NCBI GenBank assembly: GCA_013335405.1 | Contig: JAAXVR010000016.1 | Location: forward strand, 1-60,108 | Source: Chlorobiaceae bacterium | GTDB lineage: Bacteria; Bacteroidota; Chlorobiia; Chlorobiales; Chlorobiaceae | Reading direction: 5' to 3' | Length of the DNA stretch: 60,108 nucleotides | Shown here: in pieces, positions 1,638 to 17,129 of the stretch | Layout of the letters: each line of letters begins with the position of its first letter | Position numbering within the stretch: position 1 is the stretch's first letter | Translations under genes and position numbers: made by a program | Notes under the pieces: model-generated | Database searches by the model: none | What the model was told of the DNA's origin: nothing | Seen by the model: the letters and a program-made list of their open reading frames with translations, nothing else

Positions 1638-3953
1638 TTACTTGTTCGCTTGTATTGCATCGGCACGTGCTGTTTCGTGCAGGGGTCGTTTGTATGGCAG
1701 GGTGAATATGAACCGGCTTCCCCGTTTTTCATTGGATTCGACATGAATGTCGCCGCCAAGCAGTTCAACGAATCCCTTTACGATGCTGAGTCCGAGTCCT
1801 GCTCCTTCCTGATTTCGTGAAAGCGAATTGTCCGCCTGCATGAAGCGTTCGAAAATCCTATCTTTTATTTCGGAAGAAATGCCGATACCGGTATCGGCGA
1901 CATAGAACTCGAGATTTCCCTGCGTTTTTCTGTACCCGAAATCGATATATCCGTGGCTTGTGAATTTCAGGGCGTTCTGGACGAGGTTCGTTACGATCTG
2001 TTCGAGTTTCCTCGCATCGGTCAGGATAATGGATTCTTCATCCGCCAATCCTGCATACAGGTAAAGATCCAGCATTTTCATTCTCGCCTGGGGCAGGAAA
2101 AAGGCGTTGAGTTTTTGCAGAATCGCGTTGACGGATGTTTCTGCGATGTTGAGTGTCGTTTTTTTTGCATCGAGGAGAGAAATATCCAGAAGGTCATTGA
2201 TCAGTGCCATCATACGCTCTCCGCTCTGCTGGATGAGGTCGATATATTCCTGCTGCTCCGTTTCTGACAGATCGGGTTCTTTAAGCAGTTCAGTCAGCCC
2301 CATTATCCCGTTCATCGGTGTGCGGATTTCATGGCTCATGTTGGCGAGGAAAGCGGTTTTCAATTGATCGCTTTCTTCAGCCTTTTCCTTGGCGGCAACA
2401 AGTTCGGTCCAGAGTTTTTTCTTTTCGGTGATATCTTCCTTGACCGATACGAAATTTGTTATGGCGCCTATGTTATTCCGCAGGGGGGCAATGAAGGCAT
2501 TTTCCCAGTAGAGCTCGCCGTTTTTTTTCCTGTTCTGAAATTCACCATGCCATAAGGTGCCTGATCGAATTGTTTTCCAGAGTCTTTCGTACACTTCCTC
2601 CTGAGTCATTCCCGATTGCAGGATGCGCGGGTTTTTTCCCTCAACCTCTTCGAACGTATAGCCTGTGACCCTGGTGAACATCGGGTTGGTATACTCGATG
2701 TTCCCAGCAGGGTCGGTTATCATGACGACATTGGGCCCCTGTTCGATGGCGATGCTGAGCTTTTTCAGTTTTTCTTCGGCTAACAGGCGTTCCGTGATAT
2801 CGTAGAGGCTGAGATGCAGGAGTTCCAGTCCATCGATGTCCAGTATGTTGGTATGCACTTCCACATCCCTTGATGTTTTGTCGGCCGTGCGATGGCGGCA
2901 CCGGAAAACCTTTTTTTCACCGCTCCTGGCCTTATTGAATACCACACGTGATTCCTTTTCGGCAAGCAGGTTGATTTCGTTCATGCAGCTATTCCGGAGT
3001 TCGCCGATGGACCAGCCGTAGAAATCCGCGGCAGCCCTGTTCGCATCCATGATTTTTCCGGTCTCCGGATCGAGCAGGAGGTTGATCAGCGAGTTCTCGT
3101 CAAACAGTTTTCTGAAACGCTCTTCGCTTTTCCTCAGTGTTGTGATGTCGGCATTTTTCCTGTCATCGATATCGATTCCTATACCGATGATGAAGGGTAT
3201 TTCATCGATGATTATGCGTTTTCCCGATATCTGGAACCAGCGGAATCCGGGACCTCCATGGATCATAACCCGGGCCTCAAGAGTCTTTTCTCCTCCGTCT
3301 GCAAGAACAGTTGCCATCAGTTTTTCAACCAGGAGTCTGTCATCGGGATGGATGGTATCAATGGCAGCGCTGGATGGCATCTCGCTGTCCGGTTTACCGA
3401 CAACAACATCCCGTTCATAGTCATTCCAGATAACGAAAAGGCCCAGCGCATCGAACATATAGAAAGCTCCCGGGATTGCTTCTATCAGTGCATCGCTGAA
3501 GATTTTCCGGTTTTTTGCCGTTTTCTCGACCATCTTCAGCTCGTTTTCCGCCTTTTTCAGGTCGGTGATATCCTGTGCGACGATAAAGATGCAGTATACG
3601 TTTCCATCTTCCCCTGAGACCGGATAGACCGAATGCCGGAAATAACGCCCGAGATGCTCGTCTTCGAAAAACAGGCGTTCACCTGTAGTGAACACTTTTT
3701 CCGCATGGACTTTTCTCACTTCGCCCATTTCCGGCGGCATGATCTCATACATATTAACGTTCAGGGTTTCCTCCACTGTTCTGCCGAAGAGCGCGGCAAG
3801 CGATCTGTTGCATTCAAGGATTTTTCCGGAGCGCTCCATCACAAAAGAAGGGTCCCCAAAGTTCCGGAAAACCTTGAATATCATGTTCTCTGCCTGTACA
3901 CCGGGATTTCCGGATTTCAATGTCTTGTTTTCAGAGGTCATCATATCGGGCAT
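1638..3953 (-). CDS. Cytoplasmic four-PAS sensor histidine kinase
   Basis: The 771-residue protein has no signal peptide or membrane segment. Four PAS modules follow one another (about 27-135, 150-270, 275-395 and 400-515), ending in the usual DITDLKK, DIDDRKN, DITERLL and DITEKKK boundary motifs. They are followed by a HisKA domain with phospho-acceptor His541 in NMSHEIRTPMNG and a HATPase domain with N box (LVQNALKF), G1 (DTGIGI) and G2 (GAGLGLS). There is no receiver domain, so it must phosphorylate a separate regulator. The input signal is unknown; several PAS modules in a soluble kinase suggest redox, light or small-ligand sensing, which is inference. It is divergent from the hybrid kinase at 4949. 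Confidence 0.93.
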   Translation of the reverse strand: MPDMMTSENKTLKSGNPGVQAENMIFKVFRNFGDPSFVMERSGKILECNRSLAALFGRTVEETLNVNMYEIMPPEMGEVRKVHAEKVFTTGERLFFEDEHLGRYFRHSVYPVSGEDGNVYCIFIVAQDITDLKKAENELKMVEKTAKNRKIFSDALIEAIPGAFYMFDALGLFVIWNDYERDVVVGKPDSEMPSSAAIDTIHPDDRLLVEKLMATVLADGGEKTLEARVMIHGGPGFRWFQISGKRIIIDEIPFIIGIGIDIDDRKNADITTLRKSEERFRKLFDENSLINLLLDPETGKIMDANRAAADFYGWSIGELRNSCMNEINLLAEKESRVVFNKARSGEKKVFRCRHRTADKTSRDVEVHTNILDIDGLELLHLSLYDITERLLAEEKLKKLSIAIEQGPNVVMITDPAGNIEYTNPMFTRVTGYTFEEVEGKNPRILQSGMTQEEVYERLWKTIRSGTLWHGEFQNRKKNGELYWENAFIAPLRNNIGAITNFVSVKEDITEKKKLWTELVAAKEKAEESDQLKTAFLANMSHEIRTPMNGIMGLTELLKEPDLSETEQQEYIDLIQQSGERMMALINDLLDISLLDAKKTTLNIAETSVNAILQKLNAFFLPQARMKMLDLYLYAGLADEESIILTDARKLEQIVTNLVQNALKFTSHGYIDFGYRKTQGNLEFYVADTGIGISSEIKDRIFERFMQADNSLSRNQEGAGLGLSIVKGFVELLGGDIHVESNEKRGSRFIFTLPYKRPLHETARADAIQANK

Positions 3954-4110
3954 AAAATATATTGTACACCAAAACGCTTTTTATAATCTGTTGATTGATG
4001 CTGTAAGGGTAATTGGCGGGATGACAATCAAGCGATTGTAATGTTTTTTAATCTTGCGATGAATAAGGAAAAAAGCGGATCATGAAATGATCGATAGTGC
4101 GAATTGAAAA

Positions 4111-4178
4111 ATAAACAGAGCAGACTGGCACCTGCTCTGTTTATAAGAAGGTGGTACCCCCGTAGCCACCTTTTTTTT
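4111..4178 (+). ncRNA. Twin-hairpin terminator module, copy 1 (candidate small RNA)
   Basis: Two adjacent hairpins are visible. The first has a perfect 13-bp stem, ATAAACAGAGCAG at 4111-4123 and CTGCTCTGTTTAT at 4132-4144, with an 8-nt loop. The second pairs AAGGTGG (4148-4154) with CCACCTT (4166-4172) and runs into eight T residues (4171-4178), the form of an intrinsic terminator. The first stem recurs in copy 2 at 4260. On the opposite strand the first stem is also followed by TTTATTTTTC, so it may stop transcription both ways. No plus-strand gene lies upstream, so an independently transcribed RNA is possible. Confidence 0.45.
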
Positions 4179-4193
4179 AGCCGAGCGGCTAAA
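4175..4193. repeat. Short near-palindrome between hairpin modules
   Basis: TTTAGCCG, a 2-nt spacer and CGGCTAAA form an 8-bp inverted repeat directly after the T tract of hairpin copy 1. The spacing is tight for an RNA hairpin; a dimeric protein-binding site is an alternative. Confidence 0.35.
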
Positions 4194-4259
4194 TTTCTGC
4201 CGATCGGGCATGCAAAGTCGGATACGGTTTTCATCGTTGTAACATTATCCGTCATCAGC

Positions 4260-4328
4260 AAAAACAGAGCTGAGGGGGTAGCTCTGTTTTTGGCGCAGGC
4301 AGCCGCCCGTTGCTGCCTGTGTTTTTTT
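4260..4328 (+). ncRNA. Twin-hairpin terminator module, copy 2 (candidate small RNA)
   Basis: The arrangement repeats that of 4111-4178, 149 bp downstream. A perfect 12-bp stem, AAAAACAGAGCT at 4260-4271 and AGCTCTGTTTTT at 4280-4291, has an 8-nt loop. It is followed by CAGGCAGC (4296-4303) pairing with GCTGCCTG (4312-4319), again with an 8-nt loop, and then T7 at 4322-4328. The AAACAGAGC stem core is shared with copy 1 while the second stem is unrelated in sequence but alike in form. Function unknown. Confidence 0.45.
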
Positions 4329-4948
4329 GCTATGTTTTTCAGGGTGATTTCGTGAATCAGTATTACGTACTGAAAACATATGCCGGTATTCAAAAAAGGG
4401 GGTTGTCATCTGTTCACGAGTAATAATAAGATTGTTGTTTGGATTAAAAAAAATAATGAGTGAATATCATGGCTCATGCCGTTGGTTTGATATAAGTATT
4501 ATATATATACACGCTTTTGTATAGAGGTATTGTATAGGTCAGGATGAAGGTATTTATCCCTTTATTTCCTGTTTATATGCTGGAATATCAATAGCGGCTT
4601 AATCAGGGATGATGATCAATTGGCAGTATTTTCAATGATTGAAACCGGAAAGCGTTTTTTCTGCAAGTATTGTAAAGAGAATTCCTGAAAGGAATCTTTC
4701 ATAAGGATAGATCAAGCCATCACAATGGTCAATCTGCAAATACTTGTAAAGCGTTGCAGAGTATTGTGGGTCATGAACCGGTGCATGCTGCCGGATATTC
4801 ATGCGTGACATGATTTACTTATGTTGTTGCGGAGGGAATATGATTATCTGAATTTGCCATGTTTTTCGGAAGCATTGTACTGTTTTACAATGCTCATGAA
4901 TATGTTAACTTTTCCCGTATTGCTATTTAAGCTTATGAAGGGAATATT

Positions 4949-7900
4949 ATGGATGAACGAGATAAAGGTCTGATTGTTGAAAACTTCTCCTGCCCGGACC
5001 TTGAGATGAGCGCTCTGAAAGCGTCGCTGCAGGAAAAAGAGGCGAGACTCGATGCTTTGGAAAAACAGATGGAAAGCCTTGGGATGGTTGTTGACGGCAC
5101 CCGGGCAGGGTCCTGGGACTGGGACCTGCGGACCGGTCAGGTAGCTATCAACGACCGCTGGGCGGAAATGGCCGGTTATGCGAAAGAGGAGCTCGAACCG
5201 GTCACGATTGAAACATTGGCGAGCTTGTGCCACCCTGAGGATTTCAGGCAATCCGGCGAACTTCTTGAAAAGCATTTCAGGGGTGACTCGGATTTCTATG
5301 AAATCGAACTCAGGATTCGGCATAAAGACGGCCATTGGATTTGGGTGATTGACCGGGGAATGGTTTTCGAGCGTGACCGGGAGGGCAAGCCTGTCAGAAT
5401 GGTCGGTTCCCATCTCGATGTCACCAAGAGGAAACATGCCGAGGAAAGGCTTCGCAATGAACGCAACATATTCATGGGTGGTCCGGTTTCGGTTTTCCGG
5501 CTGAAAAACACTCCGGGCTGGCCTGTCCTCGATGTGTCACAGAATGTCGAAACACTGCTCGGATACAACCCTGCGGAGCTGACCGGCAATTTGGTCTGCT
5601 TTTCCGAACTTCTCCATCCTGACGACAGGCTGCGTGTCATGGGGGAAGCCGAAGCGTTCTCGGCAGACAGCCACCGGGAATCGTTCGAACTCGAGTACCG
5701 GCTGCTCGGCAAAGACGGCTCCGAAATCCAGGTCTATGATTTCAGGTTCATCCATCGCGATGAAAACGGCGTGGTCACCCACTACGACTCATTTATCCTC
5801 GACGCGGCTTCTCACAGCGGCAGTGAGCCATCCCTTTCCTACAACCGAAGGTTCGAGCGCCTGGTCACAACCCTTGCCAACCAGTTCATCAACATTCCTC
5901 TCAGCAGGATCGACGAGATGGTCAACGAAGCCCTCGAAACCATCGGGAGGCATGTAGAGGCAGACAGAAGCTATATTTTCCAGTATTACGACAACCAGCG
6001 CCTCATGGACAACACCCACGAGTGGTGTGCCGAAGGCGTCGAGCCGCAGAAAGAGATACTGCAAAACCTTCCGACCGATATGTTCTCCTGGTCGACCGCG
6101 AAAATCCATGAGAACGAGCTGATTATCGTACCGAGGGTATCGGAATTGCCGGACGAGGCTGCGGTTGAACGGGAAATCCTGCAGCAGCAGGATATCCAGT
6201 CTCTCATTCTCATCCCCCTTGCTTCGGGAAGCGTGCCGTTCGGCTATATCGGTTTCGATGCGGTGACAAAGGAGCGTCAGTGGCCCATCGAAACCGTATC
6301 GGTGCTGAAGCTTGCCGGCGGGATCATCGCCAACGCCCTCCAGCGCAAACATGTTGAGCGGCTTATCCAGTGCGAGCTCGATCTTGCGGTGAAACTCGGC
6401 ACATGCACCTCATTCGAAGAAACACTGAAAATCTGTCTGCAGAGCGCACTCGATATTTCAGGTATGGACTGTGGCGGGATCTACCTGGTGGACGAATCCG
6501 ACAGGAGCCTCAACCTTGCCTATGCAACAGGTCTTTCGGAATCATTTGTCAGGAGGAAAGCACATTACTGCAATGACAGCTGCCAGAGCCGTATCGTTTT
6601 AAAGGGAGCCCCCCTTTTCGCCAGTTATGCAGAAATCGAACGCAATGACCATGCCGCTGATCAGGAAGAAGGCCTGAAGGCGCTCGCAGTCGTTCCTGTG
6701 ATCAACAAGGGCAAGGTTGTCGCATGTCTGAACATTGCATCGCACTCGCTCGGTCAGGTCCCGGAATTTTCACGAAAGGCGCTTGAGACCGTGGCGTCGC
6801 AGATCGGAGCTGCCATCGTTCAGGCAAAACATGAGCAGAAAATATATGCGGCGAACAAAAACCTCGAAGCACTGTTCAACACGATAGATGACATGCTTTT
6901 CATTGTCGGAGCCGACGGGATGGTCAGGCAGACAAACTCATCCGTCCTTTCACATCTCGGTTATTCAGCAGAAGAAATGAACAGGATGCATGTCCTGGAT
7001 TTTCATCCTCCCGAACAGAGGGATGAAGCGAAGCGGAATGTCGAAGGAATGCTTGCAGGGACTGAAACTGTCTGCCTCGTTCCCCTGATGACGAAAACCG
7101 GGTCGCTGATTCCGGTGGAAACGATTGTCACCCATGGAACCTGGGACGGTCAGCCTGTGATATTCGGCATTTCGAGGGATATTTCCGAGCGGCTGAAACA
7201 CGAGTCCGCCATCAAGGAAAGCGAACGACGTTTCAGGGATCTGACGGAGTTTCTTCCTCTTCCGGCCATCGAAACCGACAGGCATGGAGTGATTACCTAC
7301 TGCAATATACAGACATCGGTTTTTTTTGGCTATAAAGCGAGTGAAATGCAGTGTATGTCGATATACAGGATGATCAATCCTTCAGATATGTCCCGGGTGA
7401 GGAATCTCTTGCAGTCCATATTTGAAGGGAACCGGGATAGCATCGAAATCACTGCTCTCAGGAAGGACGGCAGAGAATTCCAGGCGCTGGTTTATGTTGC
7501 CCCTGTTTTCGAGAACGGCCTTATCACCGGCGGGAGGGGTGTCGTGGTTGACCTGACGGAAATGAAGAAAACCGAGGCGGCTCTTGCTGCCTGCACATTG
7601 CAGACAAGACTCCGGGAAGAGCTGCGATCCATCATCGACAATATTCCCGGTGCTGTTTACAGGCTTTCCTCCGATGGGGTCATCAAGTTCATCAGCAGTT
7701 CGATCCGCTCGGGTTCCGGCGATCTCTTTCCGGACATGGCCGGAACCATGGATGAAGCGATGGCCTGCATCCATCCCGAAGACCGCAAAACGGTGGAGGA
7801 GACAAACAGGGAGCTCATGAGCAGAAAAAATTCCATGGTCATCGTCTACAGGATAATTACCGCGGACAATACCGTGAAATGGGTTGAAGACCGGAAAACA

Positions 7901-9148
7901 TCGACCTTTTCGGAAGACGGTACGTTTTCCTTTATTGACGGCATTCTTTTCGACATCACGGAAAGGGTCAATGTGCAGAACAGCCAGAAAGAACTTGAAA
8001 GCCGCCTGGGAAAAACACAGAGGCTTGAAACCATCGGGACGCTCGCCGGAGGGATAGCCCACGATTTCAACAATATCCTTACGCCGATTCTCGGGTATGC
8101 CGAAATGGGATTGCTGACCCTTTCGCAGGAAGATCCGCTGCATGAATATTTTTCCGAAATTGTCAGCGCGGCGGAGCGGGCACAGAACCTCGTTTCACAG
8201 ATCCTTACCTTCAGCAGGGCCCAGGAGAGCACCCCTGTGGTTGTTTCCGTCCAGTCAATCCTGACGGAAGCGCTTAAACTGCTCCGCCCGTCCATTCCTG
8301 CAACAATCGGTATCCGGCAGCATATTCAGCAGAACTGCAGGAATGTTCTCGCCGATCCTTCAAAAATTCACCAGGTCATCGTCAACCTCTGCACCAATGC
8401 TTTCCAGGCTATGGAGGAAACCGGGGGGGAACTGAGTATCGAACTGAATGAAATCATTCCTCAAGATCCTGAACTGAAAGAACTGACCGCGAAATGCAGC
8501 GGAACTCTTGTAAAGCTGACCGTTTCGGATAACGGTTGCGGTATGGATGAAGCGACCATTGAACGTATTTTCGAGCCGTTCTTCACGACGAAACCGGTCA
8601 ACAGGGGGACTGGGCTCGGCCTTTCGGTAGTTCACGGCATCATTGCAAGTTGCGGAGGTGAAATAACGGTGAAGAGCAGACCTGGTGAAGGGAGTTCGTT
8701 CAGTGTCTTCCTGCCGGTCATCGAAGAACAGCAGCATAAGGGTGAGCATACAGAAACACCTCGCAATGGCAGTTGCAGTCTGCTTTTTATTGATGATGAG
8801 GAAACCACCCTGAAAATGATCTCGACCATGCTGACGAAACTCGGTTTCAGGGTACAGGTCAGCAATTCTCCCCGAAAGGCTCTTGAGCTTTTTCGTCGGG
8901 ATCCCTTTTCATTCGACCTGGTTATCACCGATCTCACCATGCCGGAACAGAACGGTATCGAACTTGCCTCTTCGCTTCATGAAATTCGTGAAGACATTCC
9001 GGTTATTCTCATGACAGGTTACGGCAAGGATATCGAAAACAGTTTCGCCTTCGGCCGGTACGGTATCAGCAGGCTTCTCAGGAAACCGGTAAAGCTTGCC
9101 CATCTGACATCGGCGATCAATGAAGTTATTGCGGAACATAACGTGTAA
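4949..9148 (+). CDS. Soluble PAS/GAF hybrid histidine kinase with C-terminal receiver
   Basis: The 1399-residue protein lacks membrane segments. After a short N-terminal coiled coil come two PAS domains (about 45-170 and 175-300), two GAF domains (about 305-475, with a THEWC motif, and 480-635), three more PAS domains (about 645-760, 770-875 and 900-1020), an NtrB-like HisKA with His1038 in [13 protein letters not shown], a HATPase (DNGCGM, GTGLGLS) and a receiver with Asp1328 in [18 protein letters not shown] about 6 nt before the ATG supports this start. It probably passes phosphate internally and on to the receiver protein encoded 11 bp downstream. The signal is unknown; the stacked sensors suggest integration of several intracellular cues. 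Confidence 0.93.
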
Positions 9149-17053: not shown

Positions 17054-17129
17054 TGGTGTAATAAGTTCCTGCGTCGGCTGAAAAACAAGAAAAACAGTAT
17101 ACAGGTTTTTTCTGGTATTTAGCAAGAAA

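Follow-up and report, generated by a model that had tools for sequence, protein, structure and literature searches.

The window analyzed here is 60,108 nucleotides long and forms contig C33 in the 62-contig, 2.47-Mb genome of a green sulfur bacterium. It raises the question of what is encoded in the gap (3954–4948) between two divergent kinase genes, kinase-1 on the minus strand and kinase-2 on the plus strand. No gene ends into this gap from either side. The original prediction placed in it a duplicated module of two hairpins followed by a T-run, and proposed that the module could be related to the Chlorobi-1 small RNAs or be new. The twin hairpins, the T-runs, a palindrome and a CGGATA/TATCCG pairing are all present as first described, with units spaced by 149 bp when measured from start to start, and it is also correct that no plus-strand gene precedes the units, the left neighbor being on the minus strand and the right one on the plus strand. 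The claim of duplication was half right: the hairpin-1 stems of the two units share AAACAGAGC, but the loop motifs lie on opposite strands, and units 1 and 2 are therefore not simple duplicates.

Each hairpin 1 comprises 13 pairs (all perfect in unit 1) and an 8-nt loop. Hairpin 2 of unit 1 has a loop of 11 nt, or of 4 nt if a bulge is allowed, and is followed by T8 on the plus strand. The region folds more stably than shuffled sequences, with z-scores of −6.8 for the whole region and −7.0 and −5.2 for the two units. Stems containing GC pairs and followed by a T-run, as in intrinsic terminators, are found in both directions (T8 and T7 on the plus strand, T5 on the minus strand). Nine modules consisting of twin hairpins and a T-run were counted in 390 kb of this genome, about one per 43 kb; one such module is thus ordinary here, and two within 150 bp are unusual.

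Features of the kinase gap and its surroundings (G071, genome of a related species; hpA and hpB, hairpins A and B of Chlorobi-1)
Feature	Position	Strand	Description
Kinase-1	1638–3953	minus	PAS/HisKA/HATPase histidine kinase; always associated with unit 1
Conserved block: unit 1 and palindrome	4101–4193		89% nucleotide identity with G071 over 94 nt
U-tract after hairpin 1	4107–4111	minus	U5 in the window; U6 in G071
Unit 1 hairpin 1	4111–4144		minus reading: 13–15 bp stem, GCCA tip (GGU-GCCA-GUC), then UUUUU
Unit 1 hairpin 2	4148–4172		minus reading: loop CUACGGGGGUA, hpB-like
Palindrome TTTAGCCGAGCGGCTAAA	4176–4193	minus	would be the 5′ hairpin if an RNA were transcribed leftward
Unit 2 hairpin 1	4259–4292	plus	loop GAGGGGGU, hpB-like; G071 counterpart AUGGGGGG
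Unit 2 hairpin 2	about 4293–4322	plus	loop C-GCCC-G, 8 nt; hpA-like, terminator-like
T7 after unit 2 hairpin 2	4322–4328	plus	
Second conserved block	4396–4430	plus	GGGGGTTGTCATCTGTTCACGAGTAATAATAAG; similar to the 3′ half of hpB in this genome's Chlorobi-1, CATCTGTTCACGA
Kinase-2	4949–9148	plus	PAS/GAF hybrid kinase with a receiver domain

When 41 genomes were searched with the region by BLASTN, all matches outside its own genome were chance ones, and the exact hairpin pattern, sought in 61 genomes, was found at this locus only; it was a search with kinase-1 that led to relatives carrying unit 1. A covariance model of unit 1 has matches in three of the 65 genomes of the genus (E = 5e-19, 9e-19 and 9e-13) and none in the other 62, and it matches nothing strongly in another 33 genomes of the order; weaker matches in other genomes, all short and uninspected, were judged to be chance. 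Besides the window, unit 1 is found in G071 (L093/L171) and, as two diverged copies, in G008 (L034/L173). Against the 89% identity of unit 1 and the palindrome with G071, the kinase-1 codons reach only 76%, with 57% identity at third positions, and flanking intergenic DNA in the gap aligns poorly. Loss of the stems in close relatives would have spoken against the original prediction; they are instead kept, with compensatory changes, in the two other species. The two stems of three sequences contain five compensatory double changes (shuffled mean 1.7) and 98% of their cells are paired (shuffled mean 92%), and hairpin 1 of four sequences contains four compensatory double changes. The structure is thus conserved with compensatory changes, as in small RNAs, the signal being of modest strength given the few sequences. 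A coding reading of unit 1 was discarded because its indels relative to G071 disrupt every frame. The palindrome stem is kept in G071 as well as in G008, where the second copy of the unit is placed inside the palindrome (L173 490–665), whose arms now form a near-perfect 17-bp stem (TTTAACAGTGCAGCTAA / TTAGCTGCACCGTTAAA) around it.

Unit 1 lies about 145–158 nt upstream of the kinase-1 start in all three species. In G071, a 7TMR-DISM kinase, a response regulator and an usher-like cluster stand between the kinase-2 and kinase-1 orthologs, so that kinase-1 is the constant neighbor of unit 1. The region concerned (G071:C4:6346-16780, L171), about 11.5 kb that are missing from the window, contains three small secreted-protein-like ORFs and a chaperone/usher-like pair in addition to the 7TMR-DISM kinase and response regulator. 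In G082, whose dapA is close (89%), recN adjoins dapA and both kinases and units are absent there, indicating that the element travels with the signaling cassette. Kinase-1 has its closest named match on a contig of an uncultured member of the Chlorobiaceae. A conserved stretch, AGCGTTTTG, adjoins the kinase-1 start together with an upstream AT-rich element, which suggests that kinase-1 may be transcribed from a separate promoter located below unit 1.

Is the locus related to Chlorobi-1? This conserved small RNA (RF01696) has been known since 2010, has no assigned function and is typed as 'Gene; sRNA' in Rfam (PMC2864571); the literature searched yielded no functional study of it. The proposed link held in part. 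Neither Chlorobi-1 nor any other Rfam family matches the window at its gathering score (50 bits for Chlorobi-1), and at E-values up to 10 no family, Chlorobi-1 included, is listed for the 1-kb region 3950–4950; the locus is therefore not a member of the family. Both units nevertheless carry its two loops, in swapped order. The genome of the window contains two true copies of Chlorobi-1 (G000:C38; 84.7 and 71.8 bits), which display (i) a hairpin with a GCCA/GCCC tip, (ii) a hairpin with an (AAU)GGGGG loop (AAUGGGGG), (iii) an A-run and (iv) a GCGGC terminator. Read leftward, unit 1 displays the palindrome, an A-run, the GGGGG-loop hairpin (CUACGGGGGUA), the GCCA-tip hairpin and a U-tract; read rightward, unit 2 displays the GGGGG-loop hairpin (GAGGGGGU), the C-GCCC-G hairpin and U7. 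The G-rich hairpin thus precedes the GCC hairpin in both units. On the minus strand, hairpin 1 of unit 1 is both hpA-like and terminator-like. The tips are GCCA and GCCCG in G071, whose unit 2 also retains AUGGGGGG, and GCCA and ACCA in G008; the AAUGGGGG of Chlorobi-1 is found unchanged in one G008 copy, and the other copy, the one with ACCA, has lost the GGGGG (CGGAGAGA).

Among 186 adjacent strong hairpin pairs drawn from 0.66 Mb (some loci overlapping), a GGGGG loop beside a GCC[AC] loop is found only in these units, in the G071 copy and in Chlorobi-1, and random re-pairing of the loops gives this combination in 0.28% of pairs. A Chlorobi-1 covariance model with swapped hairpins scores 11.3 bits on the minus strand of unit 1, and a different, plus-strand match scores higher (13.4 bits). 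Since both scores are low, homology to Chlorobi-1 is not demonstrated and the link rests on the loop motifs: the locus resembles Chlorobi-1 in its loops only, and works like it at most. Other similarities are the presence of two adjacent hairpins and a terminator, the short length (about 70 nt), the tandem copies and the occurrence in the same genomes. In contrast to Chlorobi-1, which has a third, GCGGC hairpin and in this genome stands in a tandem array, the locus has a terminal hairpin that doubles as terminator, is made of two units on opposite strands, sits beside kinase genes and occurs in only three species.

The second conserved block is common to the window and G071 (L171, about 17060–17095) and reads GGGG(G)..TGTCATCTGTTCACGA[GC]TAATAATAA. 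It has 13 nt in common with the 3′ arm of hairpin B in the Chlorobi-1 of the window's own genome, and a 15-mer from it, searched with at most one mismatch, has two matches only in the genome of the window: the block itself and the Chlorobi-1 hairpin B arm.

The strand signals are mixed. As a minus-strand RNA, hairpin 1 forms a 15-pair stem (G-U pairs included) with a four-nucleotide tip in all four copies, 93% of it being paired, compared to 86% as a plus-strand RNA. On the same strand, the U-tract beside it is U5 in the window, U6 in G071 and U4 in the G008 copy that would be 3′-terminal, and is lacking in the inner G008 copy. The palindrome, which is kept in all three species, would be located inside a minus-strand RNA but beyond the terminator of a plus-strand one. 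Altogether, hairpin-1 pairing, U-tracts and palindrome position favor the minus strand for unit 1, although not decisively. The T-run that follows hairpin 2 on the plus strand is T8 in the window, T6 in G071 and T4 in each G008 copy, and in the window this hairpin and its T8 could form a rightward terminator. For unit 2, hairpin 2 pairs better on the plus strand (two extra pairs), which together with T7 would favor the plus strand; unit 2 of G071 has no U-tract.

Taken together, these features make the locus look like an undescribed relative, mimic or binding partner of Chlorobi-1 rather than plain terminators. In the reading that we prefer, and to which we give an even chance, one or two short structured RNAs would be transcribed back to back between the divergent kinases, and would present the Chlorobi-1 loops to the same partner as Chlorobi-1 itself. 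The unit 1 RNA would run leftward from the palindrome hairpin to the U-tract and the unit 2 RNA rightward from the GGGGG-loop hairpin to U7, with the elements in the order given above; the GCC hairpin, last in each RNA, would double as its terminator. Because the two loops of Chlorobi-1 recur in swapped order on variable stems, the partner, be it a protein or a target RNA, is probably common to both, and we infer that the RNAs would act on it or be bound by it. They would then be a mimic or specialized relative of Chlorobi-1 carried by the signaling cassette, with one RNA directed toward each kinase. A canonical-order Chlorobi-1-like RNA located between two divergent kinases in G001 (see below) also speaks for this reading. 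Against it speak the low scores of the swapped-hairpin model, the mixed strand signals, the G008 copy with ACCA and no GGGGG, the missing U-tract of unit 2 in G071, and the lack of both a sigma-54 promoter like that of Chlorobi-1 and a convincing sigma-70 one. If the two loops recur in a second type of RNA, on other stems and in the other order, this would indicate that the loops are the working parts, and the fixed place of that RNA beside a kinase would tie Chlorobi-1-type RNAs to two-component signaling.

Several alternatives have to be weighed against this reading. The units may simply be back-to-back intrinsic terminators that insulate two divergent signaling genes, as suggested by the T-runs at the end of both units, in one or both directions, by the ordinary frequency of such modules in this genome and by the features shared with bidirectional Rho-independent terminators (GC-containing stems, an A-tract before and a T-tract after). 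Such terminators, however, do not need conserved loops, yet conservation of the loops and the palindrome exceeds that of the neighboring codons; the second hairpin is likewise conserved beyond the needs of termination, the loops match those of Chlorobi-1 and there is no gene that ends into the gap to be terminated. Sequence and loop conservation thus argues against plain terminators, which we regard as improbable. A cis-acting leader of kinase-1, in which transcripts coming from the right would stop at hairpin 1 and U5 unless a signal favors readthrough, is rather unlikely: it agrees with the constant association with kinase-1 at a near-constant distance in three species and with the terminator-like hairpin on the minus strand, but an alternative, antiterminating structure is not conserved (uncompensated changes in G071 weaken the pairing of AAACAGAGC across the units), and the putative promoter suggested by the AGCGTTTTG stretch would be located below unit 1. 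The same weakening led us to reject the idea that the stem is shared mainly because it serves as a cross-unit antiterminator. As for a dispersed palindromic repeat (REP- or MITE-like) or a mobile-element remnant, palindromic units, tandem copies and a signaling cassette whose position varies among species are what it would leave; it would also be expected in many dispersed copies per genome, but each genome has a single locus, 98 genomes of the order yielded no other, and neither viral contigs (searched for the exact motif) nor plasmids contain one, so that we strongly disfavor this origin.

The remaining alternative reads unit 1 on the plus strand, as an RNA (hairpin ACUGGCAC, hairpin UACCCCCGUA, U8) that would be an antagonist or partner of Chlorobi-1. 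ACUGGC complements GCCAGU and CCCCC complements GGGGG, in the same order as in Chlorobi-1, so that pairing by two kissing loops is possible; the sequence CCCCCAUU of a G008 copy complements AAUGGGGG over 8 nt; hairpin 2 is followed by good terminators in the window (T8) and G071 (T6); and Chlorobi-1 is present in the same genome. On the other hand, hairpin 1 pairs less well on this strand, the U-tract after hairpin 2 is only U4 in both G008 copies, and the terminated strand of unit 2 bears same-sense loops rather than complementary ones. Moreover, the energy of duplexes between the Chlorobi-1 of this genome and the gap is within the range obtained with random genome pieces, so that this comparison does not support block 4396–4430 as a target site. 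We therefore consider a plus-strand antagonist to be unlikely, and its elaborate version, in which a dedicated unit 1 antagonist engages both Chlorobi-1 loops in a double kissing complex and unit 2 acts as a same-sense mimic, i.e. the kinase cassette's own sponge/mimic pair, quite unlikely.

Examination of Chlorobi-1 itself revealed how it may be expressed. All of the 24 copies checked in the genus (including L197–L206, L230, L231 and G000:C38:39919-40316 in the genome of the window) have a −24/−12 sigma-54 consensus, with 10–11 of 11 positions matched, at most 60 nt upstream; the pattern, TGGCAY-N5-TTGCW, is found 26–38 nt upstream of the Rfam start. As a control, only eight of 5,000 random 60-mers reach at least 10 of 11 positions. 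Chlorobi-1 thus looks sigma-54-dependent from its upstream sequences, which makes the conditions of its expression directly testable. In the copies inspected by eye from outside the genus, no such promoter was seen. The kinase gap differs from Chlorobi-1 in having no sigma-54 promoter, its best site scoring 7.5 bits versus 21–29 bits for Chlorobi-1 promoters. The Qrr RNAs of Vibrio are sigma-54-driven small RNAs, present in tandem and tied to signaling. The locus would resemble them as tandem small RNAs tied to signaling, which is true of Chlorobi-1 in part, but differs in that neither a sigma-54 promoter nor a known target is found here.

Note that other Chlorobi-1-like RNAs were encountered below the Rfam cut-off. 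One, with the canonical order of hairpins (G001:C33:53285-53349, L208 4286–4350; 33 bits), sits in the gap between two divergent kinases, one of which is a kinase-2 homolog; another, divergent one is found in G004 (G004:C70:601-666, L219; 23 bits). The divergent Chlorobi-1-like RNAs of G001 and G004 are both near a heavy-metal ATPase gene. Finally, G008 contains a match to the Acido-Lenti-1 RNA (RF01687; G008:C27, L213 1854–1900, minus strand; 37.2 bits versus a 37-bit cut-off) about 460 nt from a Chlorobi-1 copy.
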